From Actinomycetota bacterium (GTDB lineage: Bacteria > Actinomycetota > Acidimicrobiia > Acidimicrobiales > JAJPHE01): DNA of 64,000 nucleotides. The notes under the pieces were generated by a model. That model was not told the origin of the DNA. It was given only the letters and a program-made list of their open reading frames with translations, and ran no database searches. The stretch spans positions 1 to 64,000 of the forward strand of contig DAHUYE010000098.1 of assembly GCA_027315345.1 (NCBI GenBank). The letters run 5' to 3'. Of the stretch, positions 4,306 through 25,896 are shown in pieces. Both the position numbers and the translations under genes were made by a program. Numbering within the stretch: position 1 is the stretch's first letter; each line of letters opens with the position of its first letter.

Positions 4306-5789
4306 CCCGTCGCTTCATAGTCCGCACGTTCGGGTGCCAGATGAACGAGCACGACTCCGAGCGCATAGCCGGCTTGCTGGAGGCCGACGGGCTGGAGGCG
4401 ACCGATGACCTCGAGTCCGCCGACGTGGTGGTGCTCAACACGTGCTGCATCCGGGAGAACGCCGATGAGAAGCTGTACGGGACACTCGGACACCTGAAGT
4501 CCCTGTCCGACCGCCGCCCCGACCTCAAGATCATGGTGGGGGGTTGCCTGGCCCAGAAGGACCGGGATCTGGTCCGGCGGAAGGCCCCCCACGTCGATGT
4601 TGTCTTCGGCACCCATAACGTCGGCTCGGCGGCCGAGCTTCTCCGACGAGCGGATAGCACCGGGCCCCTAGTGGAAATCCTCGATGCCGCCGAGGAGCTC
4701 CCCTCTGCTCTCCCGAGCAAGCGGCGCCAGTCGCACTCGGCCTGGTTGACCATCCAGGTCGGCTGCGACAACAACTGCGCTTTCTGCGTCGTGCCTTCGG
4801 TACGGGGCCGGGAGGTCAGCCGTCCCTTCGGGGAGATCGTGGCCGAGGCCCGTTCCCTGGCGGCCGCCGGCGTCCTGGAGGTCACCCTCCTGGGGCAGAA
4901 CGTGAACTCCTACGGCCGGGACCTGACCCTGGCCCGGCGCAGGGCCGGCCCCGAGGCGCCGGCGGGGCCCAACCCCGAGGCGACGCCGAACCTGGAGGCA
5001 GCCGTCTTCGACGCCGGCTCGGCCTGGGTGAAGGAGGGGGCCCGGCGGGCGAGGCCGTTGTTCGCCGATCTTCTGCGGGCCGTCGGGGCGGTGGAGGGGA
5101 TCCGCCGGGTCCGGTACACCAGCCCGCATCCCAAGGACCTGCGCCAGGACGTCATGCAGGCCATGGCCGAGACACCCGAGGTGTGTGAGCACCTCCACCT
5201 TCCGCTCCAGTCCGGCAGCGACGACGTCCTGGCCGCCATGCACCGCGGCTACACGGCCGAGCGGTACCTGGAGCGACTGGAGCAGGCTCGGCGCATCATC
5301 CCCGACCTGGCCGTCACCACCGACATCATCGTGGGTTTCCCGGGGGAAACCGACGCCGACTTCGACGCCACGCTCGAGCTGGCCGCCACCGCCGCCTATG
5401 ACAGCGCCTACACCTTCATCTTCTCACCCCGGCCCGGGACGGAGGCAGCCAACCGGCCCGAGCTGTTCATCTCCCCGGAGGTGATAGCCGAGCGCTTCCG
5501 CCGCCTGGAAGTGGTCGTGCAGCGCTCTGCCCTGGCTCGGCACCGGGACCGCATCGGCCGGCAGGAGGAGGTGGTGGTGGAGGGGCCGAGCAAGAGGGAC
5601 CCGTCCCGGCTGACCGGGCGCACCCGGCAGAACAAGCTGGTCCACTTTGACCCTCCCGCCACGGGTGTGCCCGCCCCCGGCGCCCTGGCCACCGTGCTGG
5701 TCACCGGGGCGGCCCCGCACCACCTGAGTGGCGAGCTCACCGAGGTCCTGACCCGGGGCCGGAACCGGATTCCGGTCAACGTCTCCTGA
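4302..5789 (+). CDS. miaB: tRNA-2-methylthio-N6-dimethylallyladenosine synthase MiaB
   Basis: A radical-SAM methylthiotransferase that converts i6A37 to ms2i6A37 in tRNAs reading UNN codons. The N-terminal MTTase domain (FGCQMNEHDSERI, NTCCIRENA, GGCLAQ) supplies the three auxiliary-cluster cysteines. The radical-SAM CxxxCxxC motif is CDNNCAFC near residue 157, and a TRAM domain ends the protein. At 495 aa it is longer than usual (about 440-470) because roughly 38 extra residues (about 207-250, Ala/Pro/Glu-rich) separate NVNSYGRDL from PLFADLLR. It is directly overlapped by miaA, which makes its substrate. Confidence 0.96.
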   Translation: MTRRFIVRTFGCQMNEHDSERIAGLLEADGLEATDDLESADVVVLNTCCIRENADEKLYGTLGHLKSLSDRRPDLKIMVGGCLAQKDRDLVRRKAPHVDVVFGTHNVGSAAELLRRADSTGPLVEILDAAEELPSALPSKRRQSHSAWLTIQVGCDNNCAFCVVPSVRGREVSRPFGEIVAEARSLAAAGVLEVTLLGQNVNSYGRDLTLARRRAGPEAPAGPNPEATPNLEAAVFDAGSAWVKEGARRARPLFADLLRAVGAVEGIRRVRYTSPHPKDLRQDVMQAMAETPEVCEHLHLPLQSGSDDVLAAMHRGYTAERYLERLEQARRIIPDLAVTTDIIVGFPGETDADFDATLELAATAAYDSAYTFIFSPRPGTEAANRPELFISPEVIAERFRRLEVVVQRSALARHRDRIGRQEEVVVEGPSKRDPSRLTGRTRQNKLVHFDPPATGVPAPGALATVLVTGAAPHHLSGELTEVLTRGRNRIPVNVS

Positions 5790-8834: not shown

Positions 8835-9955
8835 CGGCCGGATTCGTACCCCCCGCCTACCCGTATGACCGCCTGGACGGCGCCAAGGCCAAGGCGGCCC
8901 TGCACCCCGGGGGCGTGGTCGATCTGTCCATCGGCACCCCCTGTGACCCGCCCCCGGCTGAAGTCGTGGCGGCCCTGGCCGGTTCGGGGTCGGAGCGGGG
9001 CTATCCGGCATCCATCGGCTCGCCCGCCTACCGCCGGGCGGCGGGGGAGTGGCTGGCCAACCGGCTGGGCGCCGAGGGGGATCAGGTGGCGGCGTGCGTC
9101 GGTACCAAGGAATTCGTGGCCACCACGCCGCAGTGGATGAAGTTGCGCCGGCCCGACCGGGACACCGTGTTGTATCCGGCCATCTCCTATCCCACCTACG
9201 AGATGGGCGCCATCCTGGCCGGCCTGCGGCCGGTGCCGGTGCCGACCGATGACCACTGGCGCATGCGCCTCGACGCCATCGCCCCGGCCGACGCCGAGCG
9301 GGCCCTGATGTTGTGGGTGAACAGCCCGGGCAATCCGGCCGGCCAGCTCGATGACCTGACGGCCGCCGCCGCCTGGGGCCGGGAGCGGGGCGTGCCCGTG
9401 TTCAGCGACGAGTGCTACGCCGAGTTCACCTGGGACGGTCCGCCCCGCTCGATACTCCAAGCCGGGCCGGAAGGGGTGGTGGCGGTGCACTCCCTCTCCA
9501 AGCGATCCAACCTGGCCGGCGTCCGGGCCGGCTTCTACGCCGGGGACGGGGAGCTGGTGACCTATCTGTCCGAGGTGCGCAAGCACGTGGGGATGATGGT
9601 GCCCGGCCCGGTGCAGGCCGCGGCGGTGGTGGCTCTGAGCGATCAGACCCACGTCGAGGCTCAGCGGGAGTTGTACCGGGCCCGGCTGGAGCGTTTCGCC
9701 AAGATCCTCGAAGCGGTGGGCGTCAGCGTGGAACTGCCGGCGGGCGGGTTCTACCTGTGGGCGGCGGCGGAGGGGGGGGACGGCGCGGATCCGGCCGCGG
9801 CGGCCTGGGCCCTGACCGACCGCCTGGCCGCCGACGGGGGCGTCCTGGTCAGTCCCGGGGAGTTCTACGGCCAGGCCGGGGCCGGCTACATCCGGGTGGC
9901 TCTGGTGGCGCCCATGGAGGCCCTGGAGTTGGTGGCGTCGCGCCTGGGCGTCTGA
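8831..9955 (+). CDS. dapC: Succinyldiaminopimelate aminotransferase DapC
   Basis: A fold-type I PLP aminotransferase, 374 aa, of the actinobacterial DapC group; it makes N-succinyl-LL-DAP from the 2-amino-6-oxopimelate intermediate. Visible features are YPPA-like GFVPPAYPYDRL at the N-terminus, the NSPGNPAG motif, the SDECYAEF segment and the PLP lysine in SLSKRSNLAGVRAGF (about residue 224). GTG start overlaps the hflX stop as GTGA. With dapD and dapE immediately downstream it completes three consecutive steps of the succinylase pathway. General aminotransferases look similar, so context carries weight. Confidence 0.9.
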   Translation: MTAGFVPPAYPYDRLDGAKAKAALHPGGVVDLSIGTPCDPPPAEVVAALAGSGSERGYPASIGSPAYRRAAGEWLANRLGAEGDQVAACVGTKEFVATTPQWMKLRRPDRDTVLYPAISYPTYEMGAILAGLRPVPVPTDDHWRMRLDAIAPADAERALMLWVNSPGNPAGQLDDLTAAAAWGRERGVPVFSDECYAEFTWDGPPRSILQAGPEGVVAVHSLSKRSNLAGVRAGFYAGDGELVTYLSEVRKHVGMMVPGPVQAAAVVALSDQTHVEAQRELYRARLERFAKILEAVGVSVELPAGGFYLWAAAEGGDGADPAAAAWALTDRLAADGGVLVSPGEFYGQAGAGYIRVALVAPMEALELVASRLGV

Positions 9956-21922: not shown

Positions 21923-21937
21923 GAGCCGCCCCGGCTC
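21923..21937. terminator. Small hairpin between convergent phosphofructokinase and ctaG genes
   Basis: GAGCCG-CCC-CGGCTC, 6-bp stem, overlapping the first bases of the ctaG stop. Weak support. Confidence 0.3.
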
Positions 21938-22973
21938 ACGGCTCGTTGTCCTGGGGGGCGTGCGGGCCCAGTAGGGGACCGTCAGTGGCGATGAAGCTGG
22001 GAATGTGGCCGGTGCGGGCCTGCCACTCCGCCGCCCAGCCGGAGTCGGCCCCGACGATGTCCGGATCCCGTCGGTCGGCGCGATGTTGCTCCCGTTCATC
22101 CGAGCGCAACCACTGCCGGTAGATGGGGAGCATGGCGGCGGCTATGGACAACTCACCGACGGCCCACAACACACCCCCCCCGGCATGGGTACCGGACAGC
22201 GAGTAGATGGAGGCGGCCGGGGAGGTCTCGCTCATCAGGGCGATGCCGAGGAACGACTCGAAGGGCACGCCGATCAACAGGTTGACGAACTTGGCCCCGT
22301 AACCCATGCGCCAGTTGGGGATGGGATCAGGGCTGATCATCGGCCACCAGAAGAGAGTGCCGCCGGCCAGGAAGACCACATTGAGGAAATCCATCAGGTC
22401 CATGTGGGCCATGGCGAATCCGAGCAGCGGGCTCAGGAAAAACACGAACATGATCCCGTAGTAGAGGAACCAGACCGTTATGGGATGACTGAGGATGCGG
22501 AAGACGGGGCTGTGAAGAGCTTGCAGAAAGCGGGTCTTGGTCCGCGGCGAGGACGTCTGCAGAATAAGCGTGCTGGGCGCCCCCATGGCCAGAAGCGGCG
22601 GCGCCAGGATCATCAGGAGCATGTGCTGGATCACGTGGGATGAGAAGTTCGACATGGCGAAGGTGGCCACCGATGACTGGAAGGCCAGCTCCACGGAGAT
22701 CAGGCCGCCCAGGAAGGCGGCCGTCCGACTCCGCGGCCAGTGGCGACCCCGTCCCTCCAGCTGGGTGGTGGCCCGCACGTACCAGGCGGCGCTGAGTAGA
22801 AGGCAGGCCAGGACCACGAAGGCGAACGGTCCCGTTGACCACTGGGTCAGGGCGTTGTGCACATCCACCGGTTGAGCGCCCCCCATGCCCGACGTGACGG
22901 CGCCCGGGCCGCTGGTTCCGCCGGAGCCGCTCATGCCGCTCATGCCGCTCATGCCGCTCATGGCACCGGCCAT
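21936..22973 (-). CDS. ctaG: Cytochrome c oxidase assembly factor CtaG (caa3_CtaG family) with Met-rich N-terminus
   Basis: A polytopic membrane protein of the caa3-type CtaG family (345 aa, about seven helices), involved in delivering copper to cytochrome oxidase. Conserved parts are SSHVIQHMLLMILAPPLLAMGAP, HSPVFRILSHPITVWFLYYG and FWWPMISPDP. The N-terminus has four M-S-G units (MSGMSGMSGMSG), a possible Cu(I)-binding methionine cluster (inference). It ends an operon: sigma factor, PCu(A)C, Sco1 fusion, ctaG; 13 nt separate it from the Sco1 gene, and AGGTGGG gives the RBS. Confidence 0.92.
   Translation of the reverse strand: MAGAMSGMSGMSGMSGSGGTSGPGAVTSGMGGAQPVDVHNALTQWSTGPFAFVVLACLLLSAAWYVRATTQLEGRGRHWPRSRTAAFLGGLISVELAFQSSVATFAMSNFSSHVIQHMLLMILAPPLLAMGAPSTLILQTSSPRTKTRFLQALHSPVFRILSHPITVWFLYYGIMFVFFLSPLLGFAMAHMDLMDFLNVVFLAGGTLFWWPMISPDPIPNWRMGYGAKFVNLLIGVPFESFLGIALMSETSPAASIYSLSGTHAGGGVLWAVGELSIAAAMLPIYRQWLRSDEREQHRADRRDPDIVGADSGWAAEWQARTGHIPSFIATDGPLLGPHAPQDNEP
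22929..22962 (-). repeat. 9-nt tandem repeat encoding M-S-G units in ctaG
   Basis: The forward-strand unit CCGCTCATG occurs three times in perfect tandem plus a partial copy. Unit-number change would alter methionine count without shifting the frame. Confidence 0.8.
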
Positions 22974-22986
22974 CCCACCTCCCGCA

Positions 22987-23910
22987 TCACGCCGCCGCCT
23001 GGAAACCCTGTCGGGCCAGTTTCGCCAGAGCGGCGGCCACCTCAGAGGGACGGGCCGTGCTCTCGTAGAACAGGTGGGCCTTTCCGTCCGGCGTGAAGAT
23101 CAAGGTGTAGCCGGCGTGCACCACCTGGTAGCCCCCGGAATTGGCGTTGTTTCCGGAATTGTCGCGCTTCAGATAGGACAACGGCATGTCCAGCTCGGAC
23201 TCGGCCTGGTGGATCACGCTGACCGGCCCGGTGAGGCCGATGAACGATGAGTTGAAGTGGTCGAGCCACTGGCGGATGACGGACGGACTGTCCCGGTTGG
23301 GGTCGGTGGTGACGAATACCACCTGCACCTGCCTGGCCACGGAAGCGGGCAGCTCACTCAGGGCGGCGGCGTTGAGGGCCATGTCGGTGGGGCACACGTC
23401 CGGGCAGTGGGTGTAGCCGAAATAGACGAGGGTTATCCGGTTCCGGGAGATAGCCGGAAGGTTGAGGGCCTGGCCCGAAGTGTCGGTCAGGGTCACGTCC
23501 GGCTCAGGGTAGGCGGCTGGGCTCTGCACCAGACCCGGGTAGTTGGGGTTCTGCCCGCTGGGGCCGGCCACCTGGCTGACCTGGGCGGGCGGGCCGGCGT
23601 GGTGGCCGGCCAGCACGGTGGCCCCGCCCACCAGCACGGCGGCCACCACGGCCGCGGCCGCGGCGGCGGTGACCGTGGTGCGCCAGCTCCTCGGGCGGCC
23701 CGGAGGCCCTGAGGCGGTGATGGCTCCCAGCAGCCGGTCGGTGAGATCGGGAGCGGGCCGGCCGGCCAGGGCTGTAACCCCTTGGTGGAGGGAGCGGGCC
23801 CGTTCCGCCCAGTCGGCGCACTCGGTGCAGTGGGGCGGCCCTGGGTCGGGCCCTTCCTCATCCAAGCAGGCGGACCAGGACTCCCGGTAGGCGTCACACG
23901 TTCCGGTCAT
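22987..23910 (-). CDS. Sco1/SenC copper protein fused to an N-terminal anti-sigma-like zinc-finger domain
   Basis: A 307-aa single-pass membrane protein. Residues 1-45 resemble the zf-HC2/ZAS domain of anti-sigma factors: Cys5, then the RESWSACLDEE helix, then His27-Cys28-x2-Cys31 and ADWAERARSLH. PDLTDRLLGAI (about 54-64) is a segment common in actinobacterial zf-HC2 proteins. A membrane helix spans about 79-102. The exported part (about 135-300) is a complete Sco1 thioredoxin fold with copper ligands Cys169, Cys173 (CPDVC) and His265. ATG 23910 has AGGAGG and overlaps the PCu(A)C stop as ATGA. An ECF sigma gene lies two genes upstream, so this may be its copper-sensing anti-sigma factor (inference). 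Confidence 0.9.
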   Translation of the reverse strand: MTGTCDAYRESWSACLDEEGPDPGPPHCTECADWAERARSLHQGVTALAGRPAPDLTDRLLGAITASGPPGRPRSWRTTVTAAAAAAVVAAVLVGGATVLAGHHAGPPAQVSQVAGPSGQNPNYPGLVQSPAAYPEPDVTLTDTSGQALNLPAISRNRITLVYFGYTHCPDVCPTDMALNAAALSELPASVARQVQVVFVTTDPNRDSPSVIRQWLDHFNSSFIGLTGPVSVIHQAESELDMPLSYLKRDNSGNNANSGGYQVVHAGYTLIFTPDGKAHLFYESTARPSEVAAALAKLARQGFQAAA

Positions 23911-24488
23911 GGCGTACCTCCTACCAGAGCGCTCAGCGGCACCACCGGGACGCTTACCTCGACCGTGCCGGCCCGCTGGAAGTGAAGGGTCATGACGATG
24001 GTCTGTCCGCTGACCAGGGCGGAGCGGAGGTTTTCCAGCATGACGTGGTCGTGGGCCGGTCGTAGGACGGCTGTCCCGTGGGCGGGTATGACGAGGCGGG
24101 CCAGCGGCATCATCATCCCGCCGTTGCCGTCCTCCATCTCCTGGTGGAGGCCGGCCGACGCCGCCACCGGGGTGGACGCTCCCACCAGGGCGTCGGGCTC
24201 TGCGCCCAGGTTCCTGAAGGTGGCGTAGAAGGCGGCCACGGCCGGGCTGGCCGGGACCGGCACGAACGGATCGATGACCTCGATGTCGCCCACCCGGGCC
24301 GCCACCGTGGCGCCGGCGGCCGCTTCGGAGGTGTCGGCCACGGCCGCGAATGGATGGTCGACGGGACCGGCTCCGGCCCGGTGGCCGGCGGGCCAGACCC
24401 ACTCCAGGACCACCACCGCCGTCAGGATGGCCGGCAGCGCCCCCAGGGCGACCCAGCGCCGGTGGCGCCGCAACGGTTCAAGGCTCAC
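23907..24488 (-). CDS. PCu(A)C periplasmic-type copper chaperone, membrane-anchored
   Basis: A 193-aa protein with one N-terminal membrane helix (about 12-32) and an exported PCu(A)C cupredoxin-like domain, which passes Cu(I) to the CuA/CuB sites of cytochrome oxidase, partly through Sco1. The family motif H-x10-M-x21-H-x-M is exact: His115, Met126, His148, Met150. GTG start overlaps the sigma-factor stop (GTGA), and its stop overlaps the Sco1-fusion start (ATGA). The neighbours sigma factor, Sco1 and CtaG support a copper-insertion role. Confidence 0.93.
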   Translation of the reverse strand: MSLEPLRRHRRWVALGALPAILTAVVVLEWVWPAGHRAGAGPVDHPFAAVADTSEAAAGATVAARVGDIEVIDPFVPVPASPAVAAFYATFRNLGAEPDALVGASTPVAASAGLHQEMEDGNGGMMMPLARLVIPAHGTAVLRPAHDHVMLENLRSALVSGQTIVMTLHFQRAGTVEVSVPVVPLSALVGGTP

Positions 24489-25090
24489 GAACCGTTAGTG
24501 GGCCCAGCCGGCGTTCCGGTTCCCGGGGTCGGCGGAATTTCCCGGCCGGGCCCGTCGGCGGCGGTCAGCCACTCGAGCAGCTGGGCTCGGGCCCGGGCCA
24601 CCCGGGAGCGGACCGTGCCCAGCTCGGTCTCGGCCACCGCCGCCGTCTCCGCGTAGCTCAAGCCGATGATCTGGGTCAGCACGAACGCTTCGCGGCGGTC
24701 GGGGTCCAGGCGGTTGACGAGATCGCCCAGGTCGTGGGCGGGGGCCGGATCGGGCAGGTCCGGGAGGGCGGATCGGCCCCGGGACTCCTCGGCCCGGCGC
24801 CGGCGGACGGCTCGGCCCACCGCCTCGATGCACACCCGCCGGGCGATGGTGAGCAGCCAGGTGGTCACGGCGGAATCTCCCCGGAACCCCCCCAGTGACC
24901 GCCAGGCCCGCAGGAATGTCTCCTGAGTCAGGTCATCGGCATCCTCACCGGGGACCATGTGGGCACAGAACCGGCGCACCGGGGCCTGGGTCTCACTGAG
25001 GAGGATCCGCAGCGCCCTCTGATCACCGGAACGGGCGGCCAGAGCTGCGGCGGTGAGCTCAGCCGGGCTGAGGCGCTGGGGAGCGGTCAA
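24485..25090 (-). CDS. ECF-type RNA polymerase sigma factor
   Basis: A 201-aa group 4 sigma factor. Region 2 includes GEDADDLTQETFLRAWRSLGGFRGDSAVTTWL in two segments, and region 4 has LSYAETAAVAETELGTVRSRVARARAQL. It begins with TTG at 25090, overlapping the suhB-like gene (TTGA), and is followed by PCu(A)C, the zinc-finger/Sco1 fusion and ctaG. The likely target is the copper/oxidase-assembly operon itself, with the fusion protein as anti-sigma factor. A Pro/Gly/Thr-rich C-terminal tail of about 20 residues is present. No target promoter could be identified by eye. Confidence 0.93.
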   Translation of the reverse strand: MTAPQRLSPAELTAAALAARSGDQRALRILLSETQAPVRRFCAHMVPGEDADDLTQETFLRAWRSLGGFRGDSAVTTWLLTIARRVCIEAVGRAVRRRRAEESRGRSALPDLPDPAPAHDLGDLVNRLDPDRREAFVLTQIIGLSYAETAAVAETELGTVRSRVARARAQLLEWLTAADGPGREIPPTPGTGTPAGPTNGS

Positions 25091-25896
25091 TCCTGGGCGC
25101 CGACGTCGGACAGCAGCCGGCGGAAGGCGTCGGCCACGGAGGGGGCGACGGCCAGGACCAGCTGGTCGGTGGGCTCGGGTCCGTGCAGGTCACCCACCAC
25201 CGCCCCGGCCTCCCGGGCGATGAGGCCGCCGGCGGCCCGGTCCCAGTGGTGGGTGCCGCGTTCGAAATAGGCGTCCAGGCGCCCGGCTCCCACCGCGCAG
25301 AGGTCGAGGGCGGCCGAGCCGGTCCGGCGGATGTCGCGCACCCGTCCCAGGATTTCCGACATGGCTGAGCCCTGCACCCGCCGTACGGACGAGTCATAGG
25401 CGAAGCCGGTCCCGACCAGGCTCATGCTGAGGTCAGCGGGTGAATTGACCGACAGGGGACTGGCGTTCAGCCACGAACCCGAACCCAGAAGGCCGGTGAA
25501 GGTCTCGTCCCGGGACGGGTCGTGGACGACGCCCGCCACCACCGTCCCGTCGATCTCGGCTGCGATGGAGACGGCGAAGACCGGTATCCCGTAGACATAA
25601 TTGACCGTCCCGTCCAGGGGGTCGATGACCCATCGGACCCGGCTGGGCCCGGTGCGGTCGCTGCCCTCCTCGGCCAGGATCGAGTCGTCCGGCCGGGACG
25701 CCGTGAGCACCTCCAGGATGAGCTTTTCGCTGGCCCGGTCCAGGTCGGACACCAGGTCGGTCCGGGTGGTCTTGGACTCGACCACGGTCGGACCGGAGCC
25801 CAGCCCGGCGAGGAGCAGTTGCCCGGCCTGCCGGGCCGCCGAGAGCGCCAGGTCGAGCAGCGCCGCCGGGGAAGGTTGGAGGGCGGCGTCGGTCAC
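25087..25896 (-). CDS. Inositol monophosphatase family protein
   Basis: A Mg-dependent, Li-sensitive-type phosphatase of the IMPase/FIG superfamily, 269 aa. Metal-binding motifs are AEEG (Glu), [15 protein letters not shown] (Asp-Asp) and [15 protein letters not shown]. In actinobacteria such enzymes make inositol for phosphatidylinositol and mycothiol or act as histidinol or fructose bisphosphatases, so substrate is open. It is first in the minus-strand operon; TAAACC 6 nt before the GTG start may be a leaderless -10. Its link to the copper genes is by overlap only. Confidence 0.9.

Follow-up and report, generated by a model that had tools for sequence, protein, structure and literature searches.

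Here, we propose that a protein in which a single membrane helix joins a ZAS-type anti-sigma domain to a complete Sco1 domain is likely the membrane anti-sigma factor of the adjacent SigC-like sigma factor, with the Sco1 chaperone serving as its extracytoplasmic sensor of copper or redox state. This 307-aa protein, P0001, is encoded in the window, i.e., the whole 64-kb stretch of DNA that was analyzed. Gene expression is thus probably adjusted by direct readout of the state of the copper chaperone itself. The initial annotation had suggested that the state of the Sco1 domain is signalled across the membrane to release the sigma factor, and this mechanism is probably right. Each part belongs to a known kind; no description of the combination turned up in the literature searched. 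More broadly, sequence comparison points to a group of anti-sigmas linked to SigC-like sigma factors, in which copper-binding sensor domains are exchangeable and a promoter is common to the group.

All genes of the cluster are encoded on the reverse strand. An ECF sigma gene of the SigC-like clade (24485..25090, 201 aa, start TTG at 25090; Pfam Sigma70_r2 57 bits, r4_2 47.3 bits) is followed by a gene for a PCu(A)C copper chaperone (23907..24488, 193 aa, start GTG at 24488; Pfam PCuAC 91.8 bits), the fusion gene (22987..23910), and ctaG, which encodes a caa3 oxidase assembly factor (21936..22973; Pfam Caa3_CtaG 194.3 bits). The fusion gene is a single open frame with an ATGA-coupled start and GGAGG upstream. 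The sigma and PCu(A)C genes as well as the PCu(A)C and fusion genes overlap by 4 nt, and 13 nt separate the fusion gene from ctaG. Gene order, overlaps, and gap were as originally reported when the coordinates were rechecked, and the proposed identities of the sigma factor, PCu(A)C, Sco1, and CtaG all score above the Pfam cut-offs. An inositol monophosphatase family gene (25087..25896; Pfam Inositol_P 206.5 bits), not mentioned in the initial annotation, shares 4 nt with the sigma gene on the upstream side of the latter and may be co-transcribed with the sigma operon. CtaG opens with a Met-rich repeat, MAGAMSGMSGMSGMSG (window positions 22913-22973, reverse strand), which is perhaps a Cu(I) site.

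The three-part architecture of P0001 described in the initial annotation, with an anti-sigma-like N-terminus joined by one membrane helix to a complete Sco1 domain, was recovered in our analysis, and Cys5, His27, Cys28, Cys31, Cys169, Cys173, and His265 are all located where they had been placed. The Sco1 domain comprises residues 134-300 (23011..23511, reverse strand) according to Pfam and structure matches, with C169/C173 encoded at 23406-23392 and H265 at 23118-23116. Pfam SCO1-SenC scores 97.2 bits at residues 140-277 (cut-off 22.8), and the closest fold is that of Streptomyces lividans Sco (4bpy; TM 0.84 of target), which also matches in sequence (8.5e-25); other Sco structures match too. 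The features of Sco1 are complete in P0001, i.e., CxxxC, the distal His, and a predicted thioredoxin fold, and the fusion may double as the Sco1 of the cell. The genome contains a CuA-type COX2, and its contig C100 encodes another Sco-like domain, which is divergent. The second Sco-like protein of the genome (L002:907-3096, reverse strand) is apparently a Sco-TlpA double domain. The membrane helix of P0001 is predicted at residues 75-100 (23611..23688, reverse strand; predictions 75-100 and 75-102) and is preceded by RPRSWR. Because these arginines lie N-terminal to the helix, the ZAS domain would be cytoplasmic and the Sco1 domain would be outside.

By profile and alignment, the N-terminus of P0001 (residues 1-66 with C5, H27, C28, and C31; 23713..23910, reverse strand) is a ZAS-type anti-sigma domain, which would bind the sigma factor. 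The profile was compiled from 17 stand-alone and cupredoxin-type anti-sigmas that adjoin related sigma genes, leaving out P0001 and the second fusion described below. Residues 1-75 score 42.9 bits against it (E 4.5e-11), whereas none of 2000 shuffles exceeded 9.5 bits. This rules out a chance Cys/His pattern. The score of 42.9 bits is at the low end of the clade anti-sigmas (36-94 bits) and above the other ZAS proteins of the genome (≤32 bits). The Pfam search suggested in the initial annotation confirmed SCO1-SenC in the 307-aa protein, but its zf-HC2 cut-off was not reached by the N-terminus; NCBIfam anti-sigma models touch this region at 1e-6, far below their own cut-offs. In the alignment, the zinc His of H-x3-C-x2-C is gone with a deletion of about eight residues in a loop, and His27 immediately precedes Cys28, while C5, C28, C31, and the invariant Cys, Ser, Asp, and PDL residues are kept. 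The claim of a zf-HC2-like Cys/His segment stands for its cysteines and the family profile match; that the His is off the canonical spacing had been overlooked in the initial annotation. The predicted structure has helices at about residues 2-16, 29-50, and 56-67 ahead of the membrane helix, with pLDDT of 90-97 over residues 11-50. While absence of such a fold from residues 1-75 would speak against the proposed fusion, profile and predicted topology both indicate a ZAS-type domain. A family profile that contains the window row matched the ZAS domain of RsiW in the PDB (1.6e-7); Foldseek with the small N-terminal model gave no useful anti-sigma match. No other anti-sigma of the P0001 type was found in the genome by a profile that contains the window row, which makes P0001's own score circular.

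The best NCBIfam models for the window sigma factor are PRK12535 and SigC, both below cut-off, with 116 bits against the SigC model NF007231 (cut-off 219 bits). A tree of its best 80 relatives in the genome collection splits into an outgroup and a clade of 39 rows (L174-L209, L215; support 99/97) that contains both fusion-associated sigma factors; placement inside the clade is uncertain, with long branches. Gordonia clade member L195 passes the NCBIfam SigC cut-off with 227.8 bits, and the window sigma factor, as placed by this tree, shares a clade with genuine SigC. No second SigC-like sigma factor was found in the genome, the next best scoring 56.8 bits. SigC of Mycobacterium tuberculosis prevents copper starvation (PMC7924339) and belongs to group ECF36 (PMC8999054). 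As a point against control by P0001, a conformational change, and not an anti-sigma, was proposed to control M. tuberculosis SigC (PMC8999054), and no anti-sigma for M. tuberculosis SigC is described in the literature searched.

Copper genes cluster with the SigC-like clade and not with other ECF genes. Of the clade loci, 11 of the 37 taken from the collection and 28 of the 52 belonging to the order of the window have genes for Sco, PCuAC, CopC/CopD, or cupredoxins within ~6 kb, as compared to none of 43 outgroup ECF loci (Fisher p 7e-9 versus pooled clade loci). In most clade loci, a ZAS anti-sigma gene adjoins the sigma gene, usually in divergent orientation, and mostly encodes about five membrane helices. 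Stand-alone multi-helix anti-sigmas (L304, L308, L333, and others) carry an H-x-x-R-H-L-G-A-F-like motif in their membrane part, where it may form a metal site. In Actinomycetospora, short ZAS proteins (L185:5486-5785, reverse strand, and L176) end in a Cys-rich C-terminal tail, CGCAASCGCGCRQGLACRC, that resembles metal-binding peptides. Remoter sigma relatives (L336, L337, L338, L340) are accompanied by ZAS anti-sigmas with large unrelated outer domains, and copper genes are nearly absent from their surroundings.

A survey of the phylum identified a second fusion of ZAS domain, membrane helix, and Sco1 (P0005) in G781, a genome of another class. P0005 has the canonical zinc motif and passes both Pfam cut-offs (zf-HC2 22.7 versus 22.2 bits). 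Its gene directly follows an ECF sigma gene of the same clade, and overlapping genes for PCu(A)C and a second Sco come after. This independent case rules out a single-genome freak or an assembly error. The ZAS-Sco1 fusion is nevertheless rare, with two cases in ~1,050 genomes searched. A widespread fusion was ruled out, as large searches that scored only the best candidates per genome detected it, the window aside, in none of 397 genomes of the order, none of 395 of the class, and one of 66 in the second class. Carriage on plasmids was likewise rejected: among the matches listed, there were plain Sco proteins only, covering 54-61% of the query. The initial annotation had named absence of the N-terminal domain from close homologues as evidence against its idea. 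The nearest Sco1 homologues in the same order do lack the domain, so that this absence is literally true, but the idea stands because these homologues are ordinary stand-alone Sco genes. Nineteen of 52 relatives of the window sigma gene in the order have such a stand-alone Sco gene within ~6 kb, usually together with a separate ZAS anti-sigma.

Other copper proteins are found in the position of Sco1. Anti-sigmas composed of a ZAS domain, a membrane helix, and a plastocyanin-like cupredoxin are encoded at L178:5342-5947 and L197:5336-5947 (both forward strand) and at L321:4954-5580 (reverse strand), and L315:6449-7207 (forward strand) encodes an analogous fusion with PCu(A)C (zf-HC2 38.4 bits, PCuAC 87.9 bits) directly after a SigC-like sigma gene and downstream of genes for Sco and PCu(A)C. 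An anti-sigma of the ZAS-cupredoxin type occurs in the cultured Aquihabitans sp. G128. Both halves of the four proteins encoded in L178, L197, L321, and L315 score above the Pfam cut-offs, and all four genes adjoin clade-type sigma genes. One slot behind the ZAS domain and membrane helix thus holds three unrelated copper-binding folds, i.e., Sco1, cupredoxin, and PCu(A)C, which more than any other observation argues for extracytoplasmic copper as the signal. We lean slightly towards the broader view that the three are interchangeable sensor heads of anti-sigmas, through which transcription of the delivery genes would follow the metal loading of the delivery protein itself, sensed across the membrane in place of a dedicated sensor.

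The clade also shares a promoter-like motif, seen across the loci L174-L209, L284-L335, and L345-L365. GGAAC-N17-CGAC, mostly as GGGAAC, is present in 53 of 57 divergent regions between sigma and anti-sigma genes, whereas any such pair reached at most 7 of 57 in shuffles. The motif always points to the anti-sigma gene, and its usual distance of 8-10 nt to the start codon suggests that the clade transcripts are leaderless. Across 950 kb of clade loci, 159 exact copies were counted versus 10.7 expected, while the outgroup loci had 10 versus 5.3 expected. The strict motif is absent from the 64-kb window, where only a matrix compiled from the clade sites found a predicted SigC-type site at 24498..24523 (reverse strand; GGAAC at 24523-24519 and CCAC at 24501-24498), 9 nt ahead of the PCu(A)C start codon. 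This site, with GGGAACC and then CCACT at the same spacing, is the top match of the window (16.2, next best 13.0). It has one mismatch in the -10 element (CCAC for CGAC), and scores of at least 16.2 arise in 17% of simulated 64-kb sequences; its case is place and spacing, judged after the fact, and not score. In L123, the top match is between the sigma and fusion genes, just before the fusion, and top matches are located just before the ZAS-cupredoxin gene in L178 and L197 and just before Sco in L321. Matrix matches in parts of the own-genome contigs C4, C100, and C50 were no better than chance. L197 has additional strong matches at 5155-5195 and 9139-9179 (both reverse strand) and 9603-9643 (forward strand), which precede genes for DsbA-VKOR, a P1B-type ATPase, and a DUF1775 (YcnI-type) protein. 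The matches in L197 likely outline a small copper regulon.

Sigma control by P0001 could proceed as follows. At rest, the sigma factor would be bound by the ZAS domain in the cytoplasm. Lack of copper in the outer Sco1 domain, or oxidation of the C169/C173 pair, would be the trigger, and the signal would cross the single membrane helix either directly or by regulated proteolysis, thereby freeing the sigma factor. Free sigma factor would then transcribe the genes for PCu(A)C, the fusion, and CtaG from the predicted promoter at 24498-24523. More copper would be delivered to the CuA oxidase, and the operon would also remake the inhibitor of the sigma factor. The tuning of oxidase assembly proposed in the initial annotation agrees with this predicted promoter ahead of PCu(A)C, fusion, and ctaG. 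We infer that copper starvation, and not excess, would be the trigger, because M. tuberculosis SigC counters starvation and the operon genes are delivery genes.

The opposite polarity, in which copper-loaded Sco1 releases the sigma factor as in the metal-resistance ECF systems CnrYXH or CorE, would be compatible with the P1B-type ATPases and CopC/CopD in several clade loci. We consider it improbable, as SigC of M. tuberculosis counters copper starvation (PMC7924339) and the predicted targets here are oxidase delivery proteins. Somewhat less probable still is that the fused Sco1 reports thiol redox state and not copper, with oxidants or failure of Dsb/VKOR oxidizing C169/C173 and thereby releasing the sigma factor. 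Sco proteins have a thioredoxin fold with a CxxxC pair, the DsbA-VKOR gene of L197 has its own motif match, and MauE/DsbA genes are present in L175 and L180. However, the proteins that take the place of Sco1 elsewhere, cupredoxin and PCu(A)C, provide copper sites rather than dithiol pairs, and the neighboring genes are copper genes.

The N-terminus might also be a decayed ZAS remnant that merely provides an ordinary Sco1 with a cytoplasmic tail and membrane anchor, leaving the sigma factor free or otherwise partnered. Loss of the zinc His and the missed zf-HC2 cut-off agree with decay, yet the rest of the domain is kept, including its invariant residues, the genome has no other anti-sigma of the P0001 type, and the second fusion P0005 is intact. 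This makes decay the least probable of these explanations, and we retain P0001 as a membrane anti-sigma that likely senses through its Sco1 domain.

Each part of this system has known counterparts. P0001 resembles ZAS anti-sigmas of the RsiW/RsrA type in its N-terminal Cys-rich helical domain, its single membrane helix, and a gene that adjoins the sigma gene, but differs in its displaced zinc His and in an outer part that is a metal chaperone of known fold. Stand-alone multi-helix anti-sigmas (L175, L180, L304, and others) share the ZAS family, sigma clade, promoter motif, and copper neighbors with P0001, but where P0001 has Sco1, their outer part consists of about five membrane helices and includes a His motif. 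S. lividans Sco (4bpy) is alike in Sco1 fold, CxxxC, and His, whereas ordinary Sco1/SenC proteins have a lipoprotein signal or simple anchor where P0001 has a cytoplasmic anti-sigma domain. The window sigma factor and M. tuberculosis SigC are linked by the clade that the former shares with the SigC-passing Gordonia protein and by a presumed common role in copper acquisition; the targets of M. tuberculosis SigC are ctpB and the nrp operon, as opposed to the predicted targets PCu(A)C, fusion, and ctaG. CnrYXH and CorE are likewise ECF sigma systems under metal control, which P0001 would exert. In CnrYXH, CnrX is a separate sensor, whereas the sensor of P0001 is fused to the anti-sigma and is itself an assembly chaperone. 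In CorE, a C-terminal extension of the sigma factor itself is the copper sensor (PMC8999054). No described Sco1/anti-sigma fusion was known to the author of the initial annotation, and neither a Sco1 nor a cupredoxin anti-sigma fusion was found in literature searches that reached few subscription papers and not the 2021 ECF reclassification.

These findings bear on the extracytoplasmic sensing of copper shortage in Gram-positive bacteria and on the control of SigC sigma factors. Three unrelated copper-binding folds on a shared stalk, together with the shared sigma clade and promoter motif, name a likely signal, a likely receptor, and a testable regulon. Through the chaperone, assembly of cytochrome oxidase would be linked to its own transcription.
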